From Opitutia bacterium (lineage in GTDB: Bacteria > Verrucomicrobiota > Verrucomicrobiia > Opitutales > Opitutaceae): 37,564 nucleotides of DNA. Where the stretch lies: positions 1 to 37,564 of the forward strand of contig CANJCM010000046.1 in NCBI GenBank assembly GCA_947472765.1. Reading direction: 5' to 3'. Shown here in pieces: positions 492-34,999 of this stretch. The position numbers and the translations under genes were made by a program. The number at the start of each line of letters is the position of its first letter. Position 1 is the stretch's first letter. The notes below the pieces were generated by a model. That model did not search any database, was not told where the DNA came from, and worked only from the letters and a program-made list of their open reading frames with translations.

Positions 492-2711
492 TCAGTGCTG
501 GACCGGCGTGGTCTTCAGGTTCAAGAGCGACACCCACCATCGCCAGGCCTTGTGGGCGAGGGTCGTGGCGTGCCCCTCGATCGTGACCCGAACGCGCAGG
601 CCTTCGATGACCTCGTGCGGCGGCTTATCAAAGACGGCGCTGGCGAAAAAGAACGGATGCTCGCCGCGATCCTTGCTGTTACGGTCGACCAGCTGGGAGG
701 GCACCGCCCCGCCAAAGAAGGCGAGCATGCCGACGTGGAACTCCGTGGGCTTCGCCGGCTGGGAGGAAACCGACTCGAGCTCCGTGTGAAATTTCTCCCC
801 GTTTGCCAGCCATCGGCCGGTGAGCGGCGAGCCCCGGCTGACCAACTGCGCCTCGTCCTCCGTCAGCGGAATCGTCAGCCGGAGCCGCGAGCTGTCGCCG
901 AGCCGCATGAAGGGCACCGAGGGTGAAACAAATGAGCCCGCGAGCCTCTGCACGTTCGGGGTCAGGACGTATCCACTCGCCTTGGCGCGCAGTTCGAGAC
1001 TCCGAAACCGAGCCAGCGCCCGCTCGTAGCCCGCTTCCGCCATCTCGAGTTCCTGGGCCAGCTTCGGGGGAGCCTCCGCCATCGTCCACCCCTTCTGGTA
1101 CCGAAGCGCACCAAAGCGCACCCGGGCCTGTTCGCGACTGGCCTCGGCGACCTTGAGTTCGGATTCGATTTCCGGATTGCGCAACGTGACCAGCAGATCG
1201 TTCGCCTTCACGGCCTGCCCGGTGGTGACGTGAACCTTCTCAATCACGCCGCCAATCTCCGAGGTGACGGCTTCAAAGGCGTCCGGTGTGACGATGGCCT
1301 GCTGCGTGACATGGTGATGGGTCGGCACGACAAAGCTCAACGCCACGAGGCCCGCGATGACCGCCGCGATCGTGCTCAGCCGGCGGGCCGCGGAGCCCGT
1401 CTTGACGATGTGCACCCCCGGATTCGACGAGTCCATGAACACCTTGATGAAAGGGAGAACCACAAACGAAGCTTCAACAAAATAACCGAGATACAGTCCC
1501 ACGTCGCTCAATCCAAAGGGAGCGAGGAGCCGCGCAAAAACCTGCGTGACGCCATAGATGATGAAAATCATGTAGGCGTAGGCGAAAAGTGCGTACACCA
1601 CGAACACCCGGCCGTTGGCCTCCTGATCAAACATCGTTTCCTGCTGGCGATTGCGGTAGCCGAGAAAAATCCGCTGCAGATGGTAGGAGCAAAACATGAT
1701 CGCCTTGGAACGGAGGTTCGGAATCTCGAGCAGGTCGCAGGCGACGTAGTAACCATCAAACCGCATCAGCGGGTTGATGTTGAAAATCACGGTATTCACG
1801 CTCGCCACCACCATGGCGTTGAAGGCAAGGCTGCGGCCGATGCCATCAGGAAGCACGAGCCAGAGATGGGCCGCGATGCAGGCGATGATCAGCTCGGTGA
1901 ACACTCCGGCGATGGTGACAAACAGCTTGTGGCGCTTGAGGCGCATCATCCACGCATCGGAAGCGTCCACGTAACCGCAGGGCGTAAACAGCATGAAGCA
2001 GACGCCCATCTCGTGCACCTCGCCGCCGAAGCGACGGCAGGTCATCGCATGCCCGAACTCGTGCAGCGTCTTGATGATGACGACTGAAATCCACAGCAGG
2101 ATCAGATTGCTCGCCGAGAAGAAATCGATTCGCCGCGTGGTGAACTCCGCGGCATTCGCCAGCAGCAAACCGGCGGTCCACACATACAAGGTGAGCACAC
2201 CCGCCACGAACCACTTGCTCCAAAAAAAGCGGACGGCGTGAACGAGTTTGCCCAGCCAGGCGCTCGGATCGAGCAGGGGGACCTTGATGAACAGGGCGCT
2301 CGAAACCACTTTGGCCCAGACCATCAGGAGCTGCGAAGAACGCGTCTGCCGCGCTCCTTCCACGAAGCGGCTCGCGCTCAGGTTCAAGAGGCCGCTCACC
2401 CCTAGCTGGCTGACGAAGTTCGCCAGCTCCGGGACGGAGCGGGTGTGATTGGGATAGCGCTGTTCAAACAGATCAGAGATCTGCCGCAAGGTGCGTTTCC
2501 CATCCAGCAGCGTGAGGATAAAAGCCTCTTCCGGTTGAAGTCGGAAGTAGGTCAGTGCGAGCGGGTCCTTAACGACATAGTATTCCTGATGCTTGAAGAA
2601 CTGCCGGCGGATGATGATGTCCGCTCGCAGCTTCGCCGGCGCCACCGCATCCAAATGGCGGGAGGGCGCAGCCGCCGCGGGCGGCGGGGTCGTCGGCGCT
2701 ACGGCTTCCAT
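492..2711 (-). CDS. PqqD-like / M50 site-2 metalloprotease / HlyD fusion membrane protein
   Basis: A 739-residue inner-membrane protein that probably takes part in export or processing of a peptide or protein. Domain order: a proline/alanine-rich start, a PqqD-like region at about 38-115 (PqqD domains are known in RiPP systems as peptide-recognition elements), then several membrane segments carrying the zinc motif HEFGH at 217-221 and NPLMRFDG at 313-320, which match the HExxH and NPxxxxDG signatures of M50 proteases. After a last membrane segment near 430-450 follows a barrel-sandwich/coiled-coil region of HlyD type (about 460-720). The architecture resembles proteins annotated as putative peptide zinc metalloproteases. 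Its first 13 bases overlap the end of the upstream TolC-family gene in another frame, implying one transcript and coupled translation. The proteolytic residues are intact, so I infer an active protease; the substrate is unknown. Confidence 0.88.
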   Translation of the reverse strand: MEAVAPTTPPPAAAAPSRHLDAVAPAKLRADIIIRRQFFKHQEYYVVKDPLALTYFRLQPEEAFILTLLDGKRTLRQISDLFEQRYPNHTRSVPELANFVSQLGVSGLLNLSASRFVEGARQTRSSQLLMVWAKVVSSALFIKVPLLDPSAWLGKLVHAVRFFWSKWFVAGVLTLYVWTAGLLLANAAEFTTRRIDFFSASNLILLWISVVIIKTLHEFGHAMTCRRFGGEVHEMGVCFMLFTPCGYVDASDAWMMRLKRHKLFVTIAGVFTELIIACIAAHLWLVLPDGIGRSLAFNAMVVASVNTVIFNINPLMRFDGYYVACDLLEIPNLRSKAIMFCSYHLQRIFLGYRNRQQETMFDQEANGRVFVVYALFAYAYMIFIIYGVTQVFARLLAPFGLSDVGLYLGYFVEASFVVLPFIKVFMDSSNPGVHIVKTGSAARRLSTIAAVIAGLVALSFVVPTHHHVTQQAIVTPDAFEAVTSEIGGVIEKVHVTTGQAVKANDLLVTLRNPEIESELKVAEASREQARVRFGALRYQKGWTMAEAPPKLAQELEMAEAGYERALARFRSLELRAKASGYVLTPNVQRLAGSFVSPSVPFMRLGDSSRLRLTIPLTEDEAQLVSRGSPLTGRWLANGEKFHTELESVSSQPAKPTEFHVGMLAFFGGAVPSQLVDRNSKDRGEHPFFFASAVFDKPPHEVIEGLRVRVTIEGHATTLAHKAWRWWVSLLNLKTTPVQH

Positions 2712-4111
2712 CGGGTGGTCAGGGGCACGGAATCGCCCAACTGGCCTCCGACGGAAAACTCGATGTCGGCGACCAGTGAATTATACGTGTAGACGGCTTC
2801 GGAGTACCGGGATTCCGCCCGACGACGGGTGACGCCCGCCTGCAAGACCTGCTCGAGGTTGGCCTGCCCCGCCTCGAACATCCGCCGCGCGTCGCGGGCG
2901 GCGCGAGTGGCGAGGCTCACGCTCTTGGCCTGAGACTCCATCGCCACTTTGGCCTGTTCAACTCCTTGGTAGAATTCGCGTAGTCGGGAGGTAATTTGAT
3001 GCTTCGTATCGATCAATTTGTCCTCCGCTGCCCTGCGTTCAGCTCGTAAGACCGCATCCTGGCCTCGACCCGCCCCACCCTCGAACAGGCTCCACTGTCC
3101 CGCCGTCCCGACGGTCCAGCCTTCAAGCCGATAGGAAGAATCATAGTAGGAACTGCGGGCGCCATAGTTGCCGAAAATTTCGACGCGCGGGACGTAGCGG
3201 CTCTTCTGGGAGCGCTCGTTGCGCTTCGCCGCTTCCACGGCGAGCGCCGCCCCTTCCAGATCCGGACGATTGGCGACCGCCCGGCTGATGGCCTCATCGA
3301 GCGGAAGCTTGAACTCACGGGGCTGGAATTCCCCCGAAAGTTGCAGCGCCTCCGCCTGATCCGAGATTTGCAGCAGCCGGCGAAAACCCTGTCGCGCCTG
3401 GCCCAAGGCCCGGCTGGCGTCCGCCATCTCCGCCCTCGCCCCCTGCAACTCCGCCTCGGCCCGCAGTAGTTCGAACTCCGGGATTTCGCCGACCGCCTGC
3501 TTGCGCGCCGTAATCGACACAATTTGCTCGAACTCCTCCACGCGGCGCGACTCGGAGTTGAGCATGCCGGTACGCATTTGCACTGCATCGAAGGTCTGCC
3601 GAACTTGGGACGCCGTGCGAAGCGCCGTAGCGTGAAGGTTCAGGTAGGCCTGTTTCGCGACCAACTGCTGGCGCTTGACTTGGTTCCACGTGCCGAAGCC
3701 GTCGAACACCAGTTGTCGGATCTCGATCCGCAAGTCATAGCTGCTGAGTGCGACCGCAGAATCCGCCGTAGGCGGACGCAGACGCTGGGAAGGGGCCTCG
3801 TCGACCAAACCCTGCTGCCGCTGGTTGGCCGAGCCGCTGACCGCGATCGAGGGCAGCATCCTCGCGCGAACCTGCAGCCGGATGCCTTCCTGACGCTCAA
3901 ATTCATGTTTCGCGGCGAGAAGCTCACCGTTCGCCTCCATGGCCCGATCCAGAGCCCGTTCCAGCGTCCAGGCGTTCTCGGCCGCTGTCGTGGGCTTGGC
4001 AGTCGTGCCGGAGCCCATGGTCGATTCGGCCCCAAATGCCTGCCAAGCCACTGCGAACGCGCCGACCGCTGACAGGCGGCGCAGGAAAAACGGGAGTTTC
4101 AGAGATATCAT
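2699..4111 (-). CDS. TolC-family outer-membrane efflux protein
   Basis: A 470-residue protein starting with a cleavable-looking signal sequence (MISLKLPFFLRRLSAVGAF, ending near AFGAES). The mature part consists of two similar long-helix halves with beta segments, as in TolC-type trimeric outer-membrane channels: LDRAMEANGELLAAKHEFER near the N-terminus and a second repeat beginning around LDEAISRAVANRPDLEGAAL. The length is normal for the family. The known role is a channel through the outer membrane and periplasm that docks onto HlyD-type adaptors; two or three such adaptors are encoded alongside. It is the first gene of the leftward operon and overlaps the M50 fusion gene by 13 bases. The partner inner-membrane pump is not visible here. 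Confidence 0.93.
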   Translation of the reverse strand: MISLKLPFFLRRLSAVGAFAVAWQAFGAESTMGSGTTAKPTTAAENAWTLERALDRAMEANGELLAAKHEFERQEGIRLQVRARMLPSIAVSGSANQRQQGLVDEAPSQRLRPPTADSAVALSSYDLRIEIRQLVFDGFGTWNQVKRQQLVAKQAYLNLHATALRTASQVRQTFDAVQMRTGMLNSESRRVEEFEQIVSITARKQAVGEIPEFELLRAEAELQGARAEMADASRALGQARQGFRRLLQISDQAEALQLSGEFQPREFKLPLDEAISRAVANRPDLEGAALAVEAAKRNERSQKSRYVPRVEIFGNYGARSSYYDSSYRLEGWTVGTAGQWSLFEGGAGRGQDAVLRAERRAAEDKLIDTKHQITSRLREFYQGVEQAKVAMESQAKSVSLATRAARDARRMFEAGQANLEQVLQAGVTRRRAESRYSEAVYTYNSLVADIEFSVGGQLGDSVPLTTRWKP

Positions 4112-4462
4112 GATTCCGGCAGAAAGTCGGCCCGCGGGCCCCCAGAGTTACTAGGGGAAGCAAGTTGGCATTCTGCTTCCGCGAAAAACCGGAACGTCAG
4201 CGCACCGGCGGCTCTTGGCAACGACTATCTGCCGACCACGGATGAGCCGTTAGAAGGCCGTGATTTTCCCTGTATATTGAGGTCTTGGCCGACGGCACTC
4301 CTACCGCAGTTCAGCCCCGGATTCTCGCGCTGGATTCCGAAAGCCGCTTCCCGTGAAGGCACGCGCGAGTTTTGGCGGCCGAATCACGCCGCTGCTGCAA
4401 CCGCGCCGGTACTAATTTTGTTTGCTATCGCGGATGCCGGGGTGAGTTTCTCCCAGTTCGAT
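4112..4462. promoter_or_regulatory. Divergent control region of the export locus
   Basis: This 351-base gap separates the leftward tolC-like/M50 pair from the rightward adaptor genes and must carry promoters for both directions. It is one of the few long gaps in the window without a hairpin repeat element. A frame opening at a TTG (4277) runs through it into the rightward gene, but its translation does not look like a conserved protein. I could not identify a leftward promoter with confidence. Confidence 0.5.
4250..4278 (+). promoter_or_regulatory. Candidate sigma70-type promoter for the rightward adaptor operon
   Basis: TTAGAA (4250-4255) and TATATT (4273-4278) are separated by exactly 17 bases. 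The -10 box matches the consensus at five of six positions; the -35 box is weak. The preferred start codon of the next gene lies at 4463, implying a leader of about 180 bases. The call rests on sequence pattern only. Confidence 0.35.
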
Positions 4463-6589
4463 ATGACGCCAGTGCAGTCCTCACCTGCGCCAACCCAGGT
4501 CCAACAGTTTTTCAACGGGATTACCGCCCGTTTGGCGCAGTTGGCCAAGGATCCGCCCGAATTGCTCGTGTACCTGCGGGCGCACGCCGAGTGCGTATCG
4601 AGCGCGCTCAATCCGACCGGCTTTTCGTACGAGATGCGGAACGGCCCGGGGCTCCAGCGAATGCTGCAGTCGAATATTGAGTCGCTGGGCTATAAGGATT
4701 CACCCGAGCAGGAAAATGCGTTCCAGCGCGCCATTCAGGCCGTCGCCGATCAGCGCAAACCGTTGCTGCTGCCACCGCACAGCAACGAGTCGACCGGCCT
4801 GCAGGGGCTTTCCGTCGAAGATTCACCCGCGCCCGAGCAGCTCCCGATTTTCAATCGCACGCCCTTCGAGCAGATGTTCATCCCCTTGCCGATGGGTGAC
4901 GTCAGCGCCGGCGTCCTGCATATTTGGTTTCAACCCGGTCCCCCCGGCGCCGCGCAGACGCGGGTTACCCTGCTCAAGCAGCTGTGCGGGGAAATTGATC
5001 AGTATTTCAAAACCCGCCGCTCCCGGGACGTTGCCCAGGAAGTCACGCGGCTGACGACTTACGCCAAGCTGCTCGAGGAACTGACGGGCGACATCGAACT
5101 CGATTCCGTGGGTTGGAATCTCGTGAATTTTGCGCGTGAGGCGGTGGCCTGTGAGCGCGTCTGTCTGTTTACCGCGAGCAACTACGACCGGGCCATGCGA
5201 CCGGACGCCTTGATGAGCCAGCTCGAGTACGAGTTCGTTCTGCAGGCGTGCAGCGGTCTCAAGAAGCCCCACCCGAAGAGCGAACAGGCGGTCGTACTGC
5301 AGCGCGTGGCCCAGACTCTGACACAGATGTCCCTGGAGAAGATGACGGCCCCGTCCGCGGACGGGAACGGAGTGCCTCCGGCGGCGAATACGGATAAGGC
5401 CCTGGTTGCGACGATCGATGCGAAGCGTCCGCGAATGCAGATTACGCTGATGATGCGCGATCCGGCAAAAACCGCGACGCGTCCGCCCGAGGTCAACGAC
5501 TACTTTCATCTCATGCCGATGAACTGGGCGACGGTGATTCCCCTCTTCGATCGGAACCAGCGCGTGTGTGGAATCCTGCTTTTCGAAGGGGTCAAGGTAG
5601 ACGACAAGCTGTCCACTTCAATGAAACCGATGCTGGAGCTGGCCGTCTCGGCGGGTCGCTCGCTCGGGACGGCCTTGTATTGCAACCAGCATCGGTCGAT
5701 GCGGATCGCCCGCCGCGTGATTACCTGGCGCGAGCAATACATCAACACGCCGGCCAAGCGGAAATGGCTGCGCTACGGAATACCGATTTTCGCCGTGATC
5801 GCGCTGATGGCGTTGCCGTTAAATTACCGGATCAAGGGCAACGCGAGCCTCCTCGCGACGACGCAGAACACGATGCCGGCGCTCGTGAATGCCAGTCTGC
5901 TCGAAGTTCCGGTGCACGAGGGCGAAGCCGTCAAGAAAGGGCAGATTTTGGCCCGCTTCGACACCCGCGACATTCGGCTGCAGCTTTCACAGGTGGAACA
6001 GGAGTACGAACGGTCGCTGCTGGAGAGCGACGCGGCCTTGAGTGCGGGCAACGAGAGCCAGATGCAGATTGCGCGGCTGAACGCCGCCAAAGCGGCGGCC
6101 CTGGCCGAGAAGTTGCGGGCGGACGAAGCGCGGGCGGTGGTCCGGGCTCCGTTCGACGGACTCGTTCTGGGTGCCCAAATGCTTTCGACTCGAATCGGCG
6201 ACATCCCCCGCATCGGGGAACCCGTGCTCCAAGTCATCGACCCATCGGCGTGGCAGGTAAAGGCGTCCCTCCGCGAAAGGGACCTGATCTTTTTGGGCGA
6301 TATTCTAAAGGAAAAGGGCGCCGTGCCTGCGACCCTCCGGCTTTCGTCCGATCCAGCCCGCTCCTACCAATTGAGTCTGAATCGACCGGACCAACTCGCT
6401 TATGGCCTAGATACTTCCGTAAACGAGTATCAATTCACCGTCATGGTGCCGCTCCACGAGGTTCTGACGGAAAAGACCTTTCTGAAGTCCGGATTCACGG
6501 GGCGCATCTCGTTCGACGCCGGGACGCGGTCGCTCGCTTATATCCTTTTCAAGGACTTCGTGGACTTTATCACGGTTCGCTTCCTTTAG
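4463..6589 (+). CDS. GAF-like sensory region fused to an HlyD-type membrane adaptor
   Basis: With the ATG at 4463 the protein has 708 residues; an upstream TTG at 4277 would add 62 residues of poor character, so I prefer the ATG. The first 430 residues are soluble and include a GAF-like region (around AREAVACERVCLF and VIPLFDRNQRVCGILLF). One membrane span follows at about 434-456, then a barrel-sandwich and coiled-coil adaptor part (VHEGEAVKKGQILARFDTRD ... RAVVRAPFDGLVLG) as in HlyD proteins. Known HlyD adaptors bridge an inner-membrane pump and a TolC channel. The long N-terminal half would lie in the cytoplasm, so the adaptor may sense a signal or bind a cytoplasmic partner. The next adaptor gene starts 22 bases downstream. 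Confidence 0.85.
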   Translation: MTPVQSSPAPTQVQQFFNGITARLAQLAKDPPELLVYLRAHAECVSSALNPTGFSYEMRNGPGLQRMLQSNIESLGYKDSPEQENAFQRAIQAVADQRKPLLLPPHSNESTGLQGLSVEDSPAPEQLPIFNRTPFEQMFIPLPMGDVSAGVLHIWFQPGPPGAAQTRVTLLKQLCGEIDQYFKTRRSRDVAQEVTRLTTYAKLLEELTGDIELDSVGWNLVNFAREAVACERVCLFTASNYDRAMRPDALMSQLEYEFVLQACSGLKKPHPKSEQAVVLQRVAQTLTQMSLEKMTAPSADGNGVPPAANTDKALVATIDAKRPRMQITLMMRDPAKTATRPPEVNDYFHLMPMNWATVIPLFDRNQRVCGILLFEGVKVDDKLSTSMKPMLELAVSAGRSLGTALYCNQHRSMRIARRVITWREQYINTPAKRKWLRYGIPIFAVIALMALPLNYRIKGNASLLATTQNTMPALVNASLLEVPVHEGEAVKKGQILARFDTRDIRLQLSQVEQEYERSLLESDAALSAGNESQMQIARLNAAKAAALAEKLRADEARAVVRAPFDGLVLGAQMLSTRIGDIPRIGEPVLQVIDPSAWQVKASLRERDLIFLGDILKEKGAVPATLRLSSDPARSYQLSLNRPDQLAYGLDTSVNEYQFTVMVPLHEVLTEKTFLKSGFTGRISFDAGTRSLAYILFKDFVDFITVRFL

Positions 6590-6611
6590 GCATATACCGC
6601 GCCTGCCGCCA

Positions 6612-7484
6612 ATGTTCTGCTCCCGCATCCGTTCCCACGCCTTCGCGTCCCTTCTTTTTCTGACGGGGAGTATCTCAGCGCAGGCAGGGGTCGCGATTCC
6701 CAACGACCCAGCGGCTGCCCTGCCAATGATTCCGTCGTCCGGAACCGCGCGAGGCTCATTTCGCTCGGTGCTGCGGCCGGCGATCGACGTGAGCCTGAGT
6801 GCGCGGGCAGCGGGAGTTGTTGATGCCTTGAACGTCCCGGAGGGCCAGGAGGTCGTGTCAGGACAGCCCATTATCAGTCTCGATTCGGATCAGGAAAAGG
6901 CGGAGGTCGCCCAGGCGGAAGCCGCGGTGCGTGGGTCGAAAGCGGAGATGGAACGGGTGGTGTCGGAGTTGGAGCGCATGCAGAGCCTCCGGGAGGACAA
7001 AATCTACAGCGAAAAGCAGTTCGTCGATGCGAAGTCCCAGGCCACGCAGGCGCGCAGCCGGTACGAGCAGAACGAAGCGGGGCTGCTGATGGCCCAGGCG
7101 CGGCTGGCCAACCGCACGATCAAGTCTCCGATCGCCGGAATCTTCCTCAAGACCAACAAGCTCGTCGGTGAAGCGGTGGAGCGGTATGAGACGGTCGCCC
7201 GGGTCGTAGACGTAACTAGTTTGGAAATGGTGGTCTTCTGCGACGCCCGATATTTTTCGCTGTTCAAACCCGGGCAGCACGTCGATGTAAGGGTGTTCAA
7301 ATCAACGGAAGACCAACCGATCGTTCCAGGCCTCGTCGTTCACAAAGACCCAATTATTGACCCGTCCAGCGGGACCTTCCGCGTGAAGGTTAAGGTTGAG
7401 CGCTCCGAGCATTCCGTGCCGGGTCTCGCCGCCCTGCTCATCGCCCCCGCCGCAGAACCGATTCGCTCCGCTCCGTCCCCATGA
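6612..7484 (+). CDS. Periplasmic HlyD/RND-type adaptor (membrane fusion protein)
   Basis: A 290-residue protein with an N-terminal signal sequence (FASLLFLTGSISAQA, cleavage likely near residues 25-28). It then shows the standard adaptor order: a first barrel-sandwich half (ALNVPEGQEVVSGQPIISLD, about 77-96), an alpha-helical hairpin rich in E, K and Q (about 97-165), the second barrel half (TIKSPIAGIFLKTNKLVGEAV), and a beta-barrel domain ending in PSSGTFRVKVKVE. It is shorter than many RND adaptors and lacks a long membrane-proximal domain. It probably links an inner-membrane component to the TolC-like channel. The last codon overlaps the start of the LEPR-XLL-type gene in an ATGA, which couples their translation. 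Confidence 0.9.
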   Translation: MFCSRIRSHAFASLLFLTGSISAQAGVAIPNDPAAALPMIPSSGTARGSFRSVLRPAIDVSLSARAAGVVDALNVPEGQEVVSGQPIISLDSDQEKAEVAQAEAAVRGSKAEMERVVSELERMQSLREDKIYSEKQFVDAKSQATQARSRYEQNEAGLLMAQARLANRTIKSPIAGIFLKTNKLVGEAVERYETVARVVDVTSLEMVVFCDARYFSLFKPGQHVDVRVFKSTEDQPIVPGLVVHKDPIIDPSSGTFRVKVKVERSEHSVPGLAALLIAPAAEPIRSAPSP

Positions 7485-8866
7485 AGCCGCTCTTCCGCCA
7501 ACCTCGCAGCCTCCAATTGGAGTATCTGGAGACCCGGACGCTGTTGGCGGCGGATCTGGCGGCGGATTTTGAACTCGCGGCGAAGGCCCTCACGGGTTCC
7601 GGGCCATTCGACGCCTCGTTTTCCATCAATTTTGGCAACACGCAGCTCGTGTTGACCGGCCACGGAACGGAGACCCTGAGCGTCGATCTGGATCGGCTGC
7701 CGGCTTTCGTCACCAACCTGAGGATCTCTTCGTTTTCGTCCGTCACCTTCAGTGGCACCGACCACGTCGACAGTTTGGTGGTGTCCGACGTCACAAAATT
7801 TTCGGCCCCCGATCTGAGCGTCACGAAGAGTCTGCACGTTAACAACGTCGCCTCCGTGGATCTCGCGAGTGCGGGGGTCATCGCCGTGCTCAACGGCACC
7901 GACACCAGCCTCTCGGTGGGTTCGTTGGAGTCGACGATGATCATTTCTGATCTCCACACGCTGACGTTGGATTCGCAGACCCGTGAGCTCTACGTGATCG
8001 GGCTCAACAGCGAGCAAACGCTCAACCTGAAGTACCGTCCGGAAACCATTTCCCTGGCGGGGTTGACCTCGGCTTCGGTGCACATGGTCGATGACCTCGC
8101 ATCGCCTCCACCGAGCAGCAACCCGACCGAGCCCGTCGCCTCAACCGGAAATCACTCCGGTTCGAGTCCGGTCCCGGCGGAAAAGCCCGTCACGATCATC
8201 ACTCTTCCGCTCGACGAGCGCACCCGCCATTTTCTGGCTGAGCTGCGGGATGTGGTTCACGGCACCGGCAAGGATTCGGAGCAAATCGTGTCTGAGTTCA
8301 TGGCGCACAACGGCCTTACGGCGATCGGAGCCGGCCCGACGCCGCCGAAGCTCGTTGGCACGCCCGCCGAGGCCCTGCGGCCTGATGTGGAGAATTTGAT
8401 TCGCGCCGCCGGCATCGTTGGCGGGCTCAGTTCGCCATCTGAAGCGCCGAAAGCCGACGCCAACCCGACAGGCAATGACCGGCCGTTACATGCTCCCGAG
8501 CTTGGCATCCAGACTCCGGGTAATTTTCGCGGTTGGAGTTCCGTGAGTGCTCCTGCGCTCGACATCGACGCCACCTGGCCGCTGGCCATGCCGGGCCACG
8601 CCAACTCGGAGTCGGCACGGCCCTTCCTGCCGCCGAGGAAAGAAGTCGAGCCCGTGGAACTGAAATTGGAGGACTCGGTGCGCGCGTTTGGGAACTACGT
8701 CGTCGAGCGCGTCTCGGCTGAATTTTCGCCGGGCGAGCAGTCGCTTATTCTCCTCGTTGACCCGAAGCCGACGCGCGCCGCTGGATTCAATCCCACTTCC
8801 GCGTTGGAGGCCTTTGCCCGCGGCGGCAGCCACATCGTTTCGAACTTGGGGAAGGTGGAGGCTTGA
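7481..8866 (+). CDS. LEPR-XLL-type exported protein with repetitive beta-rich region
   Basis: A 461-residue protein with no ordinary hydrophobic signal peptide. Near its start it carries the motif LETRTLLAAD (residues 16-25), which fits the LE-x-R-x-LLAAD pattern known from the N-termini of large surface proteins of Planctomycetes and relatives. Residues of about 50-210 form an irregular series of short strands (for example SLVVSDVTKFSAPDLSVTKS and STMIISDLHTLTLDSQTREL) suggestive of a beta-helix. A proline-rich linker (about 205-240) and a less ordered C-terminal half follow. Its start overlaps the stop of the adaptor gene, and an intrinsic terminator follows, so it is the last gene of the export operon. 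I infer it is a cargo or an extracellular component of this export system; its biochemical function is unknown. Confidence 0.7.
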   Translation: MKPLFRQPRSLQLEYLETRTLLAADLAADFELAAKALTGSGPFDASFSINFGNTQLVLTGHGTETLSVDLDRLPAFVTNLRISSFSSVTFSGTDHVDSLVVSDVTKFSAPDLSVTKSLHVNNVASVDLASAGVIAVLNGTDTSLSVGSLESTMIISDLHTLTLDSQTRELYVIGLNSEQTLNLKYRPETISLAGLTSASVHMVDDLASPPPSSNPTEPVASTGNHSGSSPVPAEKPVTIITLPLDERTRHFLAELRDVVHGTGKDSEQIVSEFMAHNGLTAIGAGPTPPKLVGTPAEALRPDVENLIRAAGIVGGLSSPSEAPKADANPTGNDRPLHAPELGIQTPGNFRGWSSVSAPALDIDATWPLAMPGHANSESARPFLPPRKEVEPVELKLEDSVRAFGNYVVERVSAEFSPGEQSLILLVDPKPTRAAGFNPTSALEAFARGGSHIVSNLGKVEA

Positions 8867-9009: not shown

Positions 9010-12000
9010 GTGAACATTCTCTTCGTCAACTACGGCGATTTCACCACCAACAGCCTGAATCACATCGGCGGCTTTGCGAACACGCTGAGTGCCGCCGGCC
9101 ACGCGTGTGTCGTCGCTGTCCCGCAGGACAAGGAGACCCTCAGCCACGTTTTCCAACCGCTGTTCATCCCGGCCACCTACGAGGAGCTGCTCGTGCGACC
9201 CGGACTATTTCCGGATGGCAAACCGGCGACGGTCATCCACGCGTGGACGCCACGCGAAGGCGTCCGCCAGTTCGTCCTCGCCTACCAGCGCGCCGCCTCG
9301 GCGCCCGCGCGACTGCTCATCCATCTCGAGGACAATGAGCGTTTCTTGATCGAGGCCTACACCGGCAAATCGTGGGAAGCCCTGAGCGCCGAGACTTCCC
9401 CGGAAACCGCCCAGTGGCTCATCGATGCGCTGCCCCATCCGCTCCGGCACCAGGCGTTCCTCCGGCTCGCCGATGGCGTGACGCACATTGTCGAACGGCT
9501 GCGGGATTTCGTGCCGGCCGGGGTGCCGACCCACCTGCTGGCGCCGGGCGTCGACTTCAACCTCTACCAACCGCAGGCCCCCGACGCCGCGTGGCGGGCG
9601 GAATTGGGGCTGCGCGAAGACGAGAAGGTCATCGTCTTCACCGGAAGCAACACGTTCGCGAACGAGCCTGAGATGCGGGAACTGTATCTCGCGGTTGCAC
9701 TGCTCAATCAGCGCGGCACTCCCACCCGGCTCGTCCGCACGGGATTCAACTCGCCGAAGTTTCTCGATTCGCTGGCGCCGGACATCCGGCAGCACGCCCT
9801 CGATCTCGGCTTCATTCCGAAGGCCCGGCTGCCGCGGCTCCTCGCGCTGGCCGACGTTCTCGTCCAGCCCGGCCGCCCGGGGCCGTTCAACGACTATCGC
9901 CTGCCTTCCAAGCTGCCCGAATTTCTCGCGAGCGGGAAACCCGTCATCCTTCCTCCCACCAACATCGCCGCCGGCATGATCGACGGCCGCGAGGCGTTGT
10001 TCCTCCCGACCGGCACGCCGGAGGAAATCGCCAGCCTGTGCGAGCGTCTGTTTCGCGACCCCGACCTCTGTGCCACGCTGGGACGACACGGCGAAGCGTT
10101 CGCCCGGGCGCACTTCGATCTCACCGCCAATACCCGCGGACTCGAAACGTTCTACCATCAGATCGCGGCGCAACCGTCCTCGGTCGAATGGGCGCTGGCC
10201 CAACGCGCTACCGTGACCGAGGCCACCCTCGCCGCACGCAAGCTCGCGACCCGCGCCGCCAGCGGAGGTGTCGATCAGCCCGAACTCGCCCGTGAGGCCG
10301 CGCTGCTCGCGAATCTCATCGCGCAAGTCGAACAGTCCGCCGCCGGCCTCCGCCAGGACCCGGGCAATCCGCTCCCGCGCGAACGGCTGACTCCGCCAAA
10401 CCTGCTCCCGCTGGAGAAGCTGCTCAGCGCGGAACGGGCGAACGCCGCCCGGATCGAGGAAGCACGGCTCCTGACCAAGATCCATGCCGACAACATGGAG
10501 CGCATCGCCGGGCAGCATCGCGTGCGGCGTGAGCAGGCGGAGGTCCTCCTCCGTACCGCCCGGCAGCAGGTAATCGCTTACGAGGACGCGTTGCTCAAAT
10601 CCGACGACGCCATCGCGGAACTCGAGGAGCAAATCGCCGGCGTGCGGGATGAACTCGCGCAAGCCCGCGCGGAAACCAAGTCCACCGCCCGGCAGGTCGC
10701 CGACGCCCAGGCGACCATCGGCGCCCGTGAGCAAAAGATCGCCACGATGCAGGCGTCGTTCTCGTGGCGCGCCACTTCGCCGCTGCGTGCGCTGCGCCGG
10801 GCCTTCCTCGATCGGCCCGCGCCGCCTCCGCCGTCGGGCGTGCTGCTGGGCAACGTCGACTATCCGCAGGACTGGAGTCACATCCCGCCCACGCTGAACG
10901 TCCGCGGCTGGTCGCTCCACCGCGACCGACTTCCGCTCCGGGCCGTGCGGGCCCGCCTCGGAAAGCAGAGCGTGCCGGCCGAATTCGGCCTCGAGCGACT
11001 CGATGTGCTGGATCACTTCCGCGATGATCCGGGCGCCGAACGTTGCGGCTGGATCGTGAAGGTCGACGTGCCGCGCCGCGGTTCCCATTCCTTCGTCATC
11101 GAGGTCCAGGATGGGTCCGGCACGTGGCACGTGGCGCAGTCGCGCGTGTTGCGGCGCACGACCGAGGCCCCGCCGCCACCACCGAATTCCTACGCCGCGT
11201 GGGTCGCCAGTTACGACACGCTGACCCCGGAGACGGCCGACCGCATCCGCCAGCAGCTCAGCCGGCTGCAGCGGCGCCCTCTGATTTCCGTCCTCATGCC
11301 GGTGTATAACACGCCGGAGAAATGGCTGGTGCGCGCGATCGAGTCAGTCCGGCGCCAGCTCTACGACAAGTGGGAGCTCTGCATCGCCGACGACGCTTCG
11401 ACCCAGCCACACGTGCGCAAGCTGCTCGAGCGTTACCAGAAGAAGGATCCGCGCATCAAGGTGGTCGGCCGCGAAACCAACGGCCACATCTCCGCCGCCT
11501 CGAACTCGGCCCTCGCGCTCGCCCATGGCGAATTTGTGGCGCTGCTCGATCATGATGATGAACTCCGGCCGCACGCCCTCGCCTGCGTGGCCCTGGAACT
11601 CGACGCCCATCCGGACGCCGATCTCGTCTACAGCGACGAGGACAAGATCGACGAGAACGGCCACCGGTACGACCAGTACTTCAAGCCGGACTGGAACCCG
11701 GATCTCTTCCTCGTCCAGAATTACATCAGCCACCTCGGCGTCTACCGCACGCTGCTGATCCGCGAAGTCGGCGGGTTCCGCGTCGGCTACGAGGGCTCCC
11801 AGGACTGGGATCTCGCGATGCGCGTGGTCGAGCGCTCCGCCGCCGATCGAATCCGGCATATTCCGCGGATTCTCTACCACTGGCGTTCGGTCCCGGGCTC
11901 GACCGCGATGTTGATTGGCGCGAAGTCGTACGCCGTCACGGCGGCGGAAAAGGTGATCACGGAGCACTTCGCCCGCGTCGGCGTGGCGGCCACCATTTCG

Positions 12001-13194: not shown

Positions 13195-15153
13195 GTGGCT
13201 GTCCCCGCGCCGCTCATAATTTTCGCGCACCGGTGGCGCGTTCCCGGACTGGTGCTCGCGCTCGTGGCGCTGGTGGCGGGAGTGCGCTGGGCGACCATCG
13301 ACCGCTTCGGATCCGATTTGCCGAATGCCGATCAGTGGGACGCCGAAGCCGTGGAGACCCTGCTGCCGTGGTTCGAGCGCGACCACTTCGTCTCGCATCT
13401 GCTTCAACCGCACAACGAACACCGCGTCGTCCTCACCAAGCTGCAGGCGCTCGCGGAAGCGTTGCTCGTGGGACAGTGGGACGCGCGGGTCCAGACGGTC
13501 GCCAACGCGGGACTCGCCGCACTTTTTCTCGGCGCACTCTGGCTCGCGGCGCGGTGCTGGACGAATCGGAGCGGAGAGCTCGCGCTGCTGCTGGCAACGG
13601 TGGTGCTCTTCGGGCTGCCGCTGGCGTGGGAGAATATTCTGGGCGGCTTTCACTCGCAGCAATGGTGGCTGATCGGACTGTCCACGATCGCGATCACGCA
13701 ATGGCCCTACGCTTCACCTTGGACCGCACGCTGGTTGGTCGGCGCCGGCGCCGCGATCCTGGCGCTCGGAGCAATGGGGTCAGGCTTCTTCGCGGCGGCG
13801 GTCGTCGCCGGCGCGGTGGCGGACCGTTGGCGCCGGGGGGAAATCCAGGCCCGCGAAGCCGCGCCGACGTTTCTGATCGCGGTCAGCGTCGCGGTCACCG
13901 GCCTCGCCCTCCGCGTCGATTTCGCCCCGCACGAAGCATTGAAGGCGAAGTCGGTCGGGGAATTCGCCACCCATTTTCTGCGCAGTCTGCAGTGGCCGTG
14001 GCGGGGGCAGATTTGGATTGGCGTGCTGCTGTGGCTGCCGTGGTTGATCGTCCTGCTCAAGACGTGGCCTCGCCGACCGCATCCTGCTCCTTCGGGCGGA
14101 CCGACCATCGTCGCTCTCGGCACCTGGGTCGGCCTCCAACTCATCGCCACCTCGTACGTCCGCGGCGCCGGCGCGGATTATCCGGCACCCCGTTACGTCG
14201 ACACGCTCGCTTTCGGCCTGCTCATCAACGCCTGCGCCCTGGCATGGCTGCTCGCCCGGCCGGCGGCGTTGGCAATGTCGCCACGAGGTCGGACCCGACT
14301 CGGCCTGGTTCTGCTCACGGGGGTGTGGTCGTTGACGCTGATCATCGGCCTCGGCGTCGCCACGCCACGGGTGCTGGCTGCGGAGTTGCCAGCCGCACGC
14401 ACATTCATCCGCGCCGCCGAAGGTCACGTGCGCGGTTACCTCGCCAGCAACGACCCGCGAGAACTCGCCTCCGATGATCTTCCGTTTCCCAGTCCCGAAG
14501 GCCTCGTCTGGCGGCTTGGACGGCCGGCGCTGCGCGACCTCATGCCGGTGAGCGTCCGCGCCGCCCTGCCACTCCGTTCCGCCGACGCTTCCTCGAAGGC
14601 ATTCCAGCCGAACCTCGTGTCTCTGCGCGAACTTCCCGGCGGGACCCGTCAAGGGCTGTCCAGCGCAACACCTCCTTACGGCGAGCATCCTACCTGGGGT
14701 TCACACGGCGCGAACGGCCCGGCCGACAAGGGTCTTTGGATGAGCGCGCCCCTCGCCACCGATCTCCAAGGCTGGCTGAAATTCGAGACCGCCGGCCAGC
14801 TCGGCGAGCCCGGCCTCGCCCTCGAACTCCACGATGCGCAAACGGGAGTACTGCTCGCGAGCGTGCGGCCATCACGAACTCCGGGAGACGGTTGGCGCGC
14901 CGCTTACGTGGCCGCGCCCGCCCGGCCCTTTGTCGTCGTGGCGCGCGATGAAGATGCAACGCGATGGTTCGCCTTCAGCGCTCCCGTCGAAATGAGTTCC
15001 GGCTCAAGGGCGGCGCAGCTACTCGCGAAGAATGGACTGCTGATCGCCTTGGTTGGGGCGTTCATCGGATTGTTGCCGGCGGCGGTCTTGCGTTTCGGTG
15101 CGCGACCGCCAGCAGCGTCGCGCAATGCTTGGATTCCGAAGTCGACCTCGTAG
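13195..15153 (+). CDS. Polytopic membrane protein, probable GT-C-like glycosyltransferase (paralogue of 19995-21317)
   Basis: With the GTG at 13195 the protein has 652 residues; an ATG at 13000 in the same frame would add 65 residues translated from a repeat element, so I reject it. The first membrane span (LVLALVALVAGVRW) is followed by a loop rich in acidic and histidine residues (NADQWDAEA, then QPHNEHRVVLTK), then about ten hydrophobic segments and a roughly 200-residue soluble C-terminal region. An acidic first outer loop is typical of GT-C enzymes using lipid-linked sugars, but no specific family can be assigned. The first loop has the same layout as in the protein at 19995-21317. Its last seven residues, WIPKSTS, and its stop codon are supplied by the repeat starting at 15129. 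Confidence 0.7.
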   Translation: MAVPAPLIIFAHRWRVPGLVLALVALVAGVRWATIDRFGSDLPNADQWDAEAVETLLPWFERDHFVSHLLQPHNEHRVVLTKLQALAEALLVGQWDARVQTVANAGLAALFLGALWLAARCWTNRSGELALLLATVVLFGLPLAWENILGGFHSQQWWLIGLSTIAITQWPYASPWTARWLVGAGAAILALGAMGSGFFAAAVVAGAVADRWRRGEIQAREAAPTFLIAVSVAVTGLALRVDFAPHEALKAKSVGEFATHFLRSLQWPWRGQIWIGVLLWLPWLIVLLKTWPRRPHPAPSGGPTIVALGTWVGLQLIATSYVRGAGADYPAPRYVDTLAFGLLINACALAWLLARPAALAMSPRGRTRLGLVLLTGVWSLTLIIGLGVATPRVLAAELPAARTFIRAAEGHVRGYLASNDPRELASDDLPFPSPEGLVWRLGRPALRDLMPVSVRAALPLRSADASSKAFQPNLVSLRELPGGTRQGLSSATPPYGEHPTWGSHGANGPADKGLWMSAPLATDLQGWLKFETAGQLGEPGLALELHDAQTGVLLASVRPSRTPGDGWRAAYVAAPARPFVVVARDEDATRWFAFSAPVEMSSGSRAAQLLAKNGLLIALVGAFIGLLPAAVLRFGARPPAASRNAWIPKSTS

Positions 15154-15252
15154 CCCGCTGCGTGAGCAGCGGGAAGACCTGATGCAGAGCGTTCGAGAAG
15201 TCCCTGTCCTCACGGACAGGGCCACGACGAACCGCTTAACTTCGGAATCCAG
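15129..15252. repeat. Family A element with terminal inverted repeats (copy 1, complete)
   Basis: The ends are TTGGATTCCGAAGT (15129-15142) and ACTTCGGAATCCA (15239-15251), inverted copies of each other. Inside are two hairpins in opposite orientation: 15150-15174 (GTAGCCC, arms GCTGC/GCAGC, loop GTGA) and 15200-15225 (TCCCTGTCC/GGACAGGG, loop TCAC, ending GGCCAC). The second is the reverse complement of the first in its frame but has different, still complementary, arms. This layout is that of a REPIN or small MITE. The left end lies inside the 3' end of the preceding gene. Confidence 0.85.
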
Positions 15253-15282
15253 GTAATGGCTGACGCATCTTGACCGTCCAAA

Positions 15283-15352
15283 CCTCCCGCGGCTCACGCA
15301 GCGGGCCACGACTGAAATGTGGCCCTGCCCGTGAGGGCAGGGATTCGGAACG
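15283..15352. repeat. Family A hairpins, tail-to-tail arrangement (copy 2)
   Basis: Two hairpins meet at their GGGCCAC/GTGGCCC ends across a short spacer (ACTGAAAT region). The left has arms CCCGC-GC/GC-GCGGG with one mismatch, and the right has CCCTGCCC/GGGCAGGG around GTGA. Nearly the same unit is at 22694-22752, and its reverse complement is at 17376-17435. The rest of the gap to 15465 contains nothing recognisable. Confidence 0.78.
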
Positions 15353-15465
15353 TCGGGTCGGCCTGTTCGACGAGCTTCAATCAATCGCGCCGCACCATCC
15401 CTCCCGTCCGGGTTCCGCCTTGCCAGAACCTTGGCCCCAACGACACCGTGCGACTCCCGCCCTTC

Positions 15466-21317: not shown

Positions 21318-21400
21318 GCCAGAACAATTCAGCGGACGCGCCAGGAACGTGAAGCGCCGCGACCGCAGCAGAAATGCCCCAGTTTGTCATCTGGTACCTG

Positions 21401-21520
21401 AATTCCGAAGTTGGCTTCGTAGCCCGCTGCGTGAGCAGCGGGACGGCTTCATGCAGAGCGATCGAGAAATCCCTGTCCTCACGGACAGGGCCACGCCGAG
21501 CCAATCAACTTCGGAATCCA
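21401..21520. repeat. Family A element with terminal inverted repeats (copy 4, complete)
   Basis: The ends are ATTCCGAAGT (21402-21411) and ACTTCGGAAT (21509-21518). The inner hairpins are 21419-21443 (GTAGCCC frame, arms GCTGC/GCAGC, loop GTGA) and 21469-21494 (TCCCTGTCC/GGACAGGG, loop TCAC). It is nearly identical to 15129-15252. The rest of the gap 21318-21596 holds nothing recognisable. Confidence 0.85.
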
Positions 21521-21596
21521 AGTGATCGATGACTAAGGAACGCAGGCTTGGGCTACGCTTGAGTTTGCTTCGCGACCGCGCATCTTGGCCGGTCGC

Positions 21597-22664: not shown

Positions 22665-22693
22665 GCCGTTCGGGAGCGGCAGCTGGCCAACCC

Positions 22694-22752
22694 TCCCGCT
22701 GCTCAAGCAGCGGGCCACGACTGAATTGTGGCCCTGCCCGTGAGGGCAGGGA
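22694..22752. repeat. Family A hairpins, tail-to-tail arrangement (copy 5)
   Basis: The left hairpin (CCCGCTGC/GCAGCGGG, loop TCAA, then GCCAC) and right hairpin (GTGGCCCTGCCC/GGGCAGGGA, loop GTGA) are joined by ACTGAATT. It is nearly identical to 15283-15352, but the left stem is perfect here. Confidence 0.8.
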
Positions 22753-22811
22753 TTCAAAACTTGCTGTCAGCCCGATAGCAGAGCCTCCCCAGGCAGGCGG
22801 GTCGGGGGAAC

Positions 22812-33641: not shown

Positions 33642-33739
33642 TTGGATTCCGAAGTTGGCCTCGTAGCCCGCTGCGTGAGCAGCGGGACCACATCATGCGA
33701 AGCGTTCGAGAAGTCCCTGCCCTCACGGACAGGGCCACG
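33642..33739. repeat. Family A element (copy 6, right terminal repeat missing)
   Basis: The left terminal repeat TTGGATTCCGAAGT (33642-33655) and hairpins 33663-33687 and 33713-33738 agree with copies 1 and 4. In the second hairpin one arm reads CCCTGCCC and the other GGACAGGG, so a single pair is mismatched, as expected for an intermediate between the TGTCC and TGCCC variants. The right terminal repeat is absent; the end of the leftward gene at 33759 follows within 20 bases. Confidence 0.82.
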
Positions 33740-33758
33740 CCGGCCCGCTCCGCCCGGC

Positions 33759-34760
33759 TCAGACATAGTGCCGCCGGTGAACGCGGTAGAACTCCACGGT
33801 CCGTTCGAGCGCGGTCGCGAGGCTTGTCCGCGGCCGCCAGCCGAGCCGCCGGCGAATCAGGCGGTCGTCGGCATAATAGTTGCCGATATCGATCTTCTTC
33901 CGCGCGGCCGGAAACTCGCGGACGAGAAATTCACCGCCGCCATTCGCGGCGACGAGCTGGACCGCGAGCTGCTTCAGCGTCACCGGCGGAGGGCCACCGA
34001 GATTGAAGACTTCCCCGACCGCCTTGGGATGCACGGCGGCGAGGAGAAACGCTTCGACGGCGTCGTCCACATAGGTGAAGTCCCGCAACTGCCGCCCGCC
34101 CCAGACTTCGATGGGCTGTCCCTCGAGCAGACGGCGAATCCACACTCCGACAAAGGTCTGGCGGGCGTCCTTGATCCGCATCCGCGGACCAATCGTGTTG
34201 GTCAGTCGCAGCGCCGTCGCCGGCAGGCCGTGGACGCGGGCGTAGAGCAGATGGAAGGATTCGCCCGCCAGCTTGTTGATGCCGTTCACGTCCACCGGGC
34301 GCAGCGGGTGCTTCTCGTCGACCGGCAGGTAATCGGGCCGGCCATAGATCTGGCGCGTGCTGGCAAAGACGATCCGCACCTGCGGATTGTGCAGCCGGCA
34401 CGCTTCGAGAATCGCCAGTTGCGCGCGGCAGTTGATGTCGAGGTCCGTCTGGGGATCCGACATCGAGTCCATGTGGCTCGTCTGGCCGGCGAGGTTGAAG
34501 AGGAAATCCTGTCCGCGCACGAGGCGGGGCAGCCGCGGCCAGTCGCGCACATCCGCGATGTGCACCTTCACGTCCTTCGCCACGCCCGCGAGATTGTGCC
34601 GGTTGCCGCCGTAGTCCGGCTGGAGGCTGTCGATGATCGAAACCCGGGCCCCGAGTCCCACGAGCGTCCGCGCCAGGTTGGAGCCGATGAACCCCAGTCC
34701 GCCCGTAATCAAAACCCGTCGCCCGGCATAGGCCTGCCGAAAGTCGATTAGGGTGGGCAT
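33759..34760 (-). CDS. NAD-dependent epimerase/dehydratase (extended SDR)
   Basis: The ATG at 34760 gives 333 residues; the frame upstream is repeat sequence. The NAD loop is TGGLGFIGS, the serine/threonine site is in FASTRQIYG, and a characteristic stretch LRLTNTIGPRMRIKDARQT follows. The catalytic YxxxK reads NGINK (Asn159, Lys163), so the Tyr is missing. I recall VNGINK as usual in one group of polysaccharide-locus SDRs annotated only as epimerase/dehydratase, so it is probably a subfamily trait. The true reaction is not known to me. It is 335 bases upstream of the GT2 gene in the same direction, with a repeat between. Confidence 0.85.
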   Translation of the reverse strand: MPTLIDFRQAYAGRRVLITGGLGFIGSNLARTLVGLGARVSIIDSLQPDYGGNRHNLAGVAKDVKVHIADVRDWPRLPRLVRGQDFLFNLAGQTSHMDSMSDPQTDLDINCRAQLAILEACRLHNPQVRIVFASTRQIYGRPDYLPVDEKHPLRPVDVNGINKLAGESFHLLYARVHGLPATALRLTNTIGPRMRIKDARQTFVGVWIRRLLEGQPIEVWGGRQLRDFTYVDDAVEAFLLAAVHPKAVGEVFNLGGPPPVTLKQLAVQLVAANGGGEFLVREFPAARKKIDIGNYYADDRLIRRRLGWRPRTSLATALERTVEFYRVHRRHYV

Positions 34761-34835
34761 CGGTCGGGCAGCAAACACCGGCCGGCGGTTTGCCGCCAAC
34801 TCGAAAATCAAACGGGGTGAGGACACCAACGACCT

Positions 34836-34950
34836 GAAATCCGAGGTTGGCGTTGTAGCCCGCTGCGTGAGCAGCGGGACGACTTTGATCCCAGCGATCC
34901 AGGAGTCCCTGCCCTCACGGGCAGGGCTACCAATCCAGGCCAACTTCATA
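34836..34950. repeat. Family A element (copy 7, degenerate terminal repeats)
   Basis: Hairpins 34855-34880 (GTAGCCC frame, arms GCTGC/GCAGC, loop GTGA, ending GGGAC) and 34904-34930 (GTCCC, arms TGCCC/GGGCA, loop TCAC, ending GGGCTAC) are exact inverted frames around different stems, the clearest example of the pattern. The outer ends (AAATCCGAGGTTGG and CCAACTT) are eroded. It fills the short gap between two leftward genes. Confidence 0.82.
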
Positions 34951-34999
34951 AGTCAGAAAGCACGCCTCGGCGCGCGTGGCCCACCCGGCGCACGGCGGC

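Follow-up and report, generated by a model that had tools for sequence, protein, structure and literature searches.

A SecA-less locus joining an RRE–M50–adaptor fusion and a TolC-family channel to a LEPR-motif protein: a candidate dedicated export system in an Opitutia bacterium

We analysed a 37 564 nt stretch of DNA from an Opitutia bacterium (assembly GCA_947472765.1), hereafter the window. The window is an entire contig (CANJCM010000046.1, C46 of its genome), so its edge is the contig end and the far side is unseen. At positions 492–8866 lies a locus of five genes in two divergent units, which encodes a protease–adaptor fusion, a TolC-family channel, two further adaptors and a protein of the LEPR/Planc_extracel type. 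On the minus strand, the TolC-family gene (2699–4111) overlaps the fusion gene (492–2711) by 13 bases (2699–2711), and 491 bases separate the end of the fusion gene from the edge of the window. On the plus strand, a GAF-adaptor gene (4463–6589) is followed by the gene for a third adaptor (6612–7484) and the LEPR gene (7481–8866), the last two showing ATGA coupling at 7481–7484. An earlier note, made from the letters of the window alone, had described these five genes with their overlap and coupling, and its observation as a whole was confirmed. The gene list itself needed two changes: the GAF-adaptor gene most likely starts at the ATG at 4463 and not at the TTG at 4277, which would give 770 residues, and a sixth gene of LuxR type was added at the contig end. 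The terminator said to close the locus did not hold up, as terminator-like sites in 12 kb were at chance level (11, against 10.7 expected in shuffled sequence). No sigma-70-like promoter was found in positions 1–12 000, the divergent intergenic region (4112–4462) included, and the promoters there may be of another type.

The fusion protein (739 residues, about seven membrane helices) combines an RRE (PqqD-like) domain, an M50 site-2 protease and an adaptor of the HlyD/MacA type. Pfam matched HlyD_D23 (E 4e-10), placed Peptidase_M50 just under its cut-off (26.9 bits; cut-off 27.2) and gave a weak PqqD match (E 0.011). A structure predicted from 45 sequences, with a mean predicted local distance difference test (pLDDT) score of 86, bears out all three labels, which the earlier note had assigned. 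Residues 23–111 (2379–2645, minus strand) are predicted to resemble RRE domains solved with leader peptide (5v1u, 5v1v and 6jx3; Z 10.5–10.9, root-mean-square deviation (rmsd) 2.7–2.8), with Z 10.9 and rmsd 2.8 over 82 of 84 residues for 5v1u, and Z 10.5 for 6jx3. The modelled M50 core (residues 198–329; 1725–2120) matches an RseP orthologue (7w6y; Z 10.3, rmsd 3.1, 129 residues), and residues 463–717 (561–1325) form a predicted membrane-fusion domain akin to MacA, MexA and ZneB (Z ~14 to 16.4). The site-2 protease signature is present: the HExxH motif (residues 217–221; 2049–2063) and a distal NP..D motif lie in membrane helices within the RseP fold, and H217, E218, H221 and D319 do not vary in either of two alignments, of 19 and 45 sequences. 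Judged from hydrophobicity and the model, the roughly seven helices would leave the RRE domain in the cytoplasm and the adaptor domain in the periplasm, with HExxH at the end of its helix that faces the cytoplasm. Residues 47–412 also match the daptide protease model NF041824 (166.5 bits, E 9e-49; cut-off 300), and the YydH/LiaK model NF058609 matches at 42 bits (cut-off 225). By sequence, the front half of the fusion is a distant relative of the daptide RRE-protease; no daptide protease structure stood among the fold-search matches listed.

The other components of the machine are a channel and two adaptors. The TolC-family outer-membrane channel (470 residues) matches OEP (PF02321, E 1.6e-45) and scores 113 bits with TIGR01844 (cut-off 225). 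Pfam detected no GAF domain in the 708-residue GAF adaptor at E 0.1. Its predicted structure (pLDDT 82, predicted template modelling score 0.45) agrees with the label of GAF–HlyD adaptor given earlier, showing two GAF domains, one membrane helix and a MacA/MexA-type domain (Z 16). The GAF pair matches the tandem GAF of PDE5A at Z 19.5, with an rmsd of 9.9 over 305 residues, and single GAF domains fit the model with an rmsd of ~3. The third adaptor is of the RND periplasmic type (TIGR01730, RND_mfp; 139 bits, cut-off 94.9) and has a hydrophobic, signal-peptide-like N terminus (stretch 11–29).

The last gene of the plus-strand unit encodes a protein of 461 residues carrying LEYLETRTLLA at residues 13–23 (7517–7549), which satisfies a strict LExLExRxLLA pattern. 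PF07595 (Planc_extracel) scores this protein at 17 bits (E 0.0046; cut-off 25.5), and NF012209, the curated NCBI LEPR-XLL model made by others (cut-off 17), gave no match at E 0.1. An alignment of 12 proteins encoded at this position in the locus shows conservation of the C-terminal region; the most distant of them has 20–22 % identity to the protein of the window. A second LEPR protein is encoded in the same genome on another contig (G000:C9).

Two forms of the locus occur within the bacterial family of the window. In type A, to which the window belongs, the fusion and TolC genes usually diverge from genes for a GAF adaptor, a second adaptor and a LEPR protein of ~430–510 residues; in two exceptions (L038 and L140) the fusion and LuxR-type genes are followed by the adaptor genes with no change of strand, and the LEPR protein found is long. 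TolC adjoins the fusion in all 14 type A loci clustered. Type B loci consist of an adaptor, a GAF adaptor, the fusion, a secondary SecA and often a long LEPR open frame. The short LEPR proteins of type A cluster by BLAST in nine loci, and several type A loci hold a second, longer LEPR protein, one of them with RTX calcium-binding repeats (L134). Other loci, mostly planctomycete, also encode the fusion. In the stretch covered, most of them have GAF adaptors or adaptors of another kind, SecA adjoins in a minority and LEPR proteins are rare. Four type A loci also encode a protein of 456–466 residues beside TolC (L039:10198–11568, L040:12648–14048, L143:11981–13381 and L054:7228–8607), with methyltransferase domains in both copies tested. 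Beyond these phyla, the SecA form occurs in two Alphaproteobacteria, Shimia (L123) and Sedimentitalea (L132), followed by a giant LEPRYLLSAD open frame of 9696 and 9708 residues, respectively, with the motif ~80–100 residues into the frame as called.

The motif is linked locally to the fusion gene. The strict pattern was found at 15 of 20 type A loci, the window included, at 12 of 22 type B loci and in none of 20 control regions of 20 kb (400 kb in all), which came from genomes with such loci and were placed at round coordinates rather than at random (p 8e-7 for type A, 7e-5 for type B). Truncated contigs, such as L053 (fusion only) and L142, were kept in these counts, and of the five type A loci that lack the pattern, four sit on contigs shorter than 7 kb. 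A looser pattern added three type B loci and none of the type A misses, and matched in one control region. We rejected the idea that the motif is a chance match, given the empty 400 kb of control sequence under the strict pattern. Of the 72 motif sites, 48 have a fusion gene within 10 kb, against an expectation of ~0.5 % per site in a 4.5 Mb genome. The motif variant also tracks the machine, with LLA at 18 of 19 type A sites and LLS or MLS at 11 of 12 type B sites (p 1.6e-6, relatedness ignored).

The same association was apparent between genomes. Fusion matches weaker than E 1e-40 were excluded from the family table, and motif matches were accepted at E≤0.005. Among 252 family genomes, 60 had the fusion and 51 the motif: 49 had both, 11 the fusion only, two the motif only (G250 and G619) and 190 neither (p 7.6e-39). 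Admitting motif matches of E 0.005–0.05, which added seven fusion-less genomes (G012, G019, G055, G070, G497, G566 and G580), changed these counts to 49, 11, 9 and 183 (p 4e-32). Tallied by hand at genus level with the tree ignored, the motif occurred in 20 of 24 genera with the fusion and 0 of 25 without (p 3.8e-10), or 20 of 24 and 1 of 25 with the weaker matches included (p 7e-9). Within the genus of the window itself, the listed genomes divided 3 of 4 against 0 of 21 (p 0.0017). In a separate set of 24 genomes with the fusion, reached from named loci, the motif was present in 18. NF012209 gave a similar picture across 387 genomes of the phylum: at ≥20 bits, 23 had both, two the motif only and 60 the fusion only (p 6e-15), and at the model's own cut-off 26 had both and eight the motif only (p 6e-13).

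In the Planctomycetes, 40 of 46 fusion-positive and 40 of 153 fusion-negative genomes, the identities of the latter inferred from numbering, were searched with a profile termed A4. This profile was used because PF07595 was judged too insensitive and was dropped as a planctomycete marker. The motif was found in 16 of 40 genomes with the fusion and 1 of 40 without. Co-occurrence through large genomes alone was considered and rejected, as the association persisted in both genome size classes (p 0.006 and 0.014). Separately, one planctomycete without a detected fusion carries a clear motif (G840:C203:5661–5723; E 1.7e-6, 1192-residue frame).

Tag and machine therefore strongly tend to occur together in the compared genomes. 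The co-occurrence of M50–HlyD fusions, GAF–HlyD adaptors and LEPR-XLL proteins had been proposed in advance as the check on the locus, and both outcomes that would have counted against it, chance co-occurrence or a pump gene always adjacent with the LEPR gene absent, failed to appear. That the LEPR-type protein belongs with the M50–HlyD/GAF–HlyD/TolC machinery is well supported by local linkage and genome co-occurrence together; the interpretation offered in the earlier note is, taken as a whole, supported in part.

These results lead us to propose, with a probability of roughly 65 %, that the locus encodes a dedicated export system in a form without SecA, with an N-terminal LExLExRxLL(A/S) motif as the mark of its cargo. 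In such a system the RRE domain, on the cytoplasmic side, would bind the motif. The M50 centre, its HExxH at the cytoplasmic helix end if the N terminus is inside, would release or trim the leader, perhaps cutting near LLA/LLS. From what is known of their families, TolC and the three adaptors (the fused one, the GAF adaptor and the third) would form the path over the periplasm and outer membrane. In the sister form the chain would be driven by a secondary SecA, and candidates for energizing the SecA-less form are the canonical SecA, a separately encoded ATPase or another source. The GAF domains and the LuxR-type gene may tie the machine to signals.

The 461-residue LEPR protein is the probable cargo. 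It could instead be a machine part, given how regularly it occurs in the locus, and several further observations weigh against our proposal. The protein lies below the PF07595 cut-off and is missed by NF012209. That model was run on eight locus proteins and exceeded its cut-off in four of type B (L042, L043, L047 and L049) and in none of the type A proteins of L035 (two), L038 and L040; it also exceeded its cut-off in one of 14 control genomes, Deinobacterium chartae, which lay outside the fusion search. One type A locus (L041) runs for 7 kb past its GAF-adaptor gene with neither a second adaptor nor the motif. Only five of 79 other loci, mostly planctomycete, had the strict motif in the stretch covered, so the linkage there is genomic and not local. 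The fusion occurs without a motif match in 11 of 60 family genomes, 60 of 83 phylum-wide (NF012209 at ≥20 bits) and 24 of 40 Planctomycetes; some of the motif-less genomes are fragmentary drafts, but one (G558) has a listed completeness of 99 %, and almost no motif matches come from divergent families such as f41 and f46. With PF07595 at E≤0.01, 16 of 199 planctomycete genomes were positive, 7 of 46 with the fusion and 9 of 153 without (p 0.06), and part of the training set of profile A4 came from motif sites next to fusion genes, that of the window among them. The compared genomes are also related to one another, and association of this kind falls short of proof for binding, cleavage or export.

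The N terminus of the LEPR protein bears on an alternative in which the motif is an unusual Sec signal: SecA and SecYEG would export LEPR proteins, and the M50–adaptor complex would trim or release them or take them across the outer membrane. Over 15 residues, the hydrophobicity of cargo N termini (0.24–1.74) overlaps that of TolC (1.43) and the third adaptor (1.49), and a 19-residue test found no hydrophobic core in the LEPR protein and none in TolC either. The lack of a core is thus no clean evidence for a route apart from Sec; the like result for TolC slightly lowered our confidence in the proposal, and the hydrophobicity values are compatible with a Sec signal. The motif has been termed a novel signal peptide in the available part of one report (PMC8567305), and a SecA-type ATPase is encoded in the sister loci. 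A single canonical-sized SecA was present in 13 of 14 type A genomes that have no type B locus. In the genome of the window (95.9 % complete) no secondary SecA was found, either in the window or elsewhere, and the one SecA_DEAD match lies on another contig in a 1012-residue frame; the other 13 genomes yielded exactly one SecA_DEAD in 12 cases (957–1034-residue frames) and none in G625. By comparison, all five type B genomes tested had a secondary SecA, and a genome with both locus types (G002) had its second SecA only at the type B locus. The RRE fold fused to the protease argues the other way, since it suggests that the machine itself recognizes a peptide, and we consider the Sec-signal explanation unlikely.

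The earlier note had remarked on the lack of an ABC or RND pump, and none of the five genes at 492–8866 encodes an ABC, RND or MFS pump. It had gone on to suggest that the fusion may stand in for the pump. Taken further, this would mean export without a dedicated motor, with the fusion gating, cutting and handing LExLExRxLL-tagged proteins to TolC, and the SecA-driven sister form exporting some of the largest predicted bacterial proteins. The longest motif-bearing open frame reaches 20 466 residues. The SecA ATPase beside the fusion in the sister form argues that the fusion alone is not the motor, and we regard motor-less export as unlikely. As called, LEPR-bearing open frames of 18 189–20 466 residues occur at G127:C142:82006–82068, G130:C1:3411911, G045:C1:3960295 and G252:C29:69057.

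A conventional ABC exporter nearby might instead be the real pump that powers the adaptors. Wzt-type ABC ATPase genes occur in seven of 14 type A stretches (ABC_tran and Wzt_C in the six tested by Pfam), accompanied by an ABC-2 permease in L040 and L143 and placed directly after the LuxR-type gene in L035 and L036. No such gene was seen in the other seven stretches, which end within ~20 kb, and type B loci have SecA instead. Moreover, Wzt_C and the neighbouring glycosyltransferases indicate polysaccharide export, so that the ABC gene more likely serves the adjoining polysaccharide cluster. We therefore judge this the remotest of the explanations and very improbable.

The gene at the contig end raises another possibility, that the locus is a regulatory device. 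Positions 147–1 on the minus strand hold the 5' part of a LuxR-type (GerE) regulator gene, 49 codons from its ATG at 147 (tblastn 57.5 % over 40 residues, E 1e-8); the rest is missing since the window, being the whole contig, stops there. Of the 14 type A loci examined, 12 have a LuxR-type homologue adjacent to the fusion gene, with L054 truncated where its contig stops. The remaining two are the window and L034, whose contig ends too soon. GerE (PF00196) was found in both homologues tested. As a regulatory device, the GAF adaptor would sense, the M50 part would carry out regulated intramembrane proteolysis and the LuxR-type protein would respond, while a small molecule would leave through the adaptors and TolC, with the LEPR protein as an accessory. 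The predicted tandem GAF fold, the polysaccharide cluster downstream and the sensory role that Kamneva et al. proposed for the GAF protein (PMC4452313, in the portions available) are in keeping with this. However, tight co-occurrence with motif proteins, very long open frames included, would not be expected of such a device, and at E 1e-5 no LuxR-type homologue was detected in the 22 type B stretches. A purely regulatory role is accordingly quite improbable in our view.

The proposed export system has partial precedents. In the available portions of their 2015 paper, Kamneva, Poudel and Ward described a neighbourhood of SecA_DEAD, M50–HlyD, GAF–HlyD and HlyD genes, sometimes with OEP and with no ABC transporter, suggested that SecA is the ATPase and the M50 protein a possible inner-membrane pore, and called the broader role of the module unknown; those portions name neither a substrate nor the LEPR motif (PMC4452313). 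The window likewise encodes an M50–HlyD, a GAF–HlyD and a further HlyD protein together. It differs in that no secondary SecA was found in the window or its genome, and in that type A loci have TolC beside the fusion and a LuxR-type gene wherever the contig reaches.

A second precedent is the daptide system, whose clusters were found through an RRE fused N-terminally to a site-2 protease. The consulted part of that report states that the RRE-dependent protease removes the leader and gives the precursor leader motif as ELExMEAP (PMC10036551). The fusion shares with MpaP/DapP the N-terminal RRE and site-2 protease, according to the predicted structure, as well as the NF041824 match, and the daptide leader motif resembles the LExLExR of the window. 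Of the independent hints that the RRE of the fusion may read the motif, this short likeness, judged by eye, is the best. Unlike MpaP/DapP, the fusion falls below the model's cut-off and has an added adaptor domain; its presumptive partner is a protein (very long in sister loci) and not the precursor of a ribosomally synthesized and post-translationally modified peptide (RiPP), and no daptide-type modifying enzymes occur among the locus genes. The epipeptide protease EpeP also links an M50 protease to export, being believed both to cleave and to export its product; it acts on a single RiPP, and the available text on it mentions no adaptor/TolC path (PMC10885120).

Three adaptor modules and a TolC-family channel are likewise typical of type I secretion and tripartite efflux (HlyD/MacA/AcrA–TolC), but the locus has no ABC exporter and its candidate signal is N-terminal. 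The LEPR protein shares the core motif near its N terminus with the proteins of LEPR-XLL (NF012209) and Planc_extracel (PF07595), differing in its short length and in lying below or outside both models. According to the part of the report that was available, RRLxxExLExRxLLA, attributed to Studholme et al. (2004), is a putative signal for the export of surface proteins, and in T. immobilis 52 genes carry the motif, 20 of whose products were detected by proteomics, with the motif on eight of the 10 longest proteins (PMC8567305). Within the open PMC literature, which leaves aside bioRxiv and subscription papers, we recognized no paper that links LEPR/Planc_extracel proteins to the M50/SecA module. 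The machinery is thus not wholly new; what is probably new, as far as searched, is the assignment of these proteins as its likely cargo and the SecA-less variant. If the proposal is correct, two loose ends would be joined, a widespread module reported in 2015 and an N-terminal motif of giant planctomycete surface proteins, which the available portions of the sources leave without a known substrate and a known machine, respectively. A class of very large surface proteins would gain its machine, and RRE leader-reading would extend from RiPP peptides to protein export. The SecA-less form would also raise the question of how a tripartite exporter runs without an evident motor.

Beyond the locus, positions 9010–35000 of the window encode glycosyltransferases, sugar-nucleotide epimerases/dehydratases, methyltransferases, an acyltransferase and unannotated open reading frames, which together look like a surface polysaccharide cluster. 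A glycosyltransferase of 1305 residues encoded in the window has relatives in five other type A stretches. Finally, GC-rich dispersed repeats of 43–135 nt recur across the window. Copies lie at 15130–15264, 21399–21533, 33643–33777 and 34835–34969, and at 15278–15378 and 22687–22787. Inverted pairs are found at 273–332/13041–13100 and 356–398/12976–13018, and the family looks mobile or REP-type.

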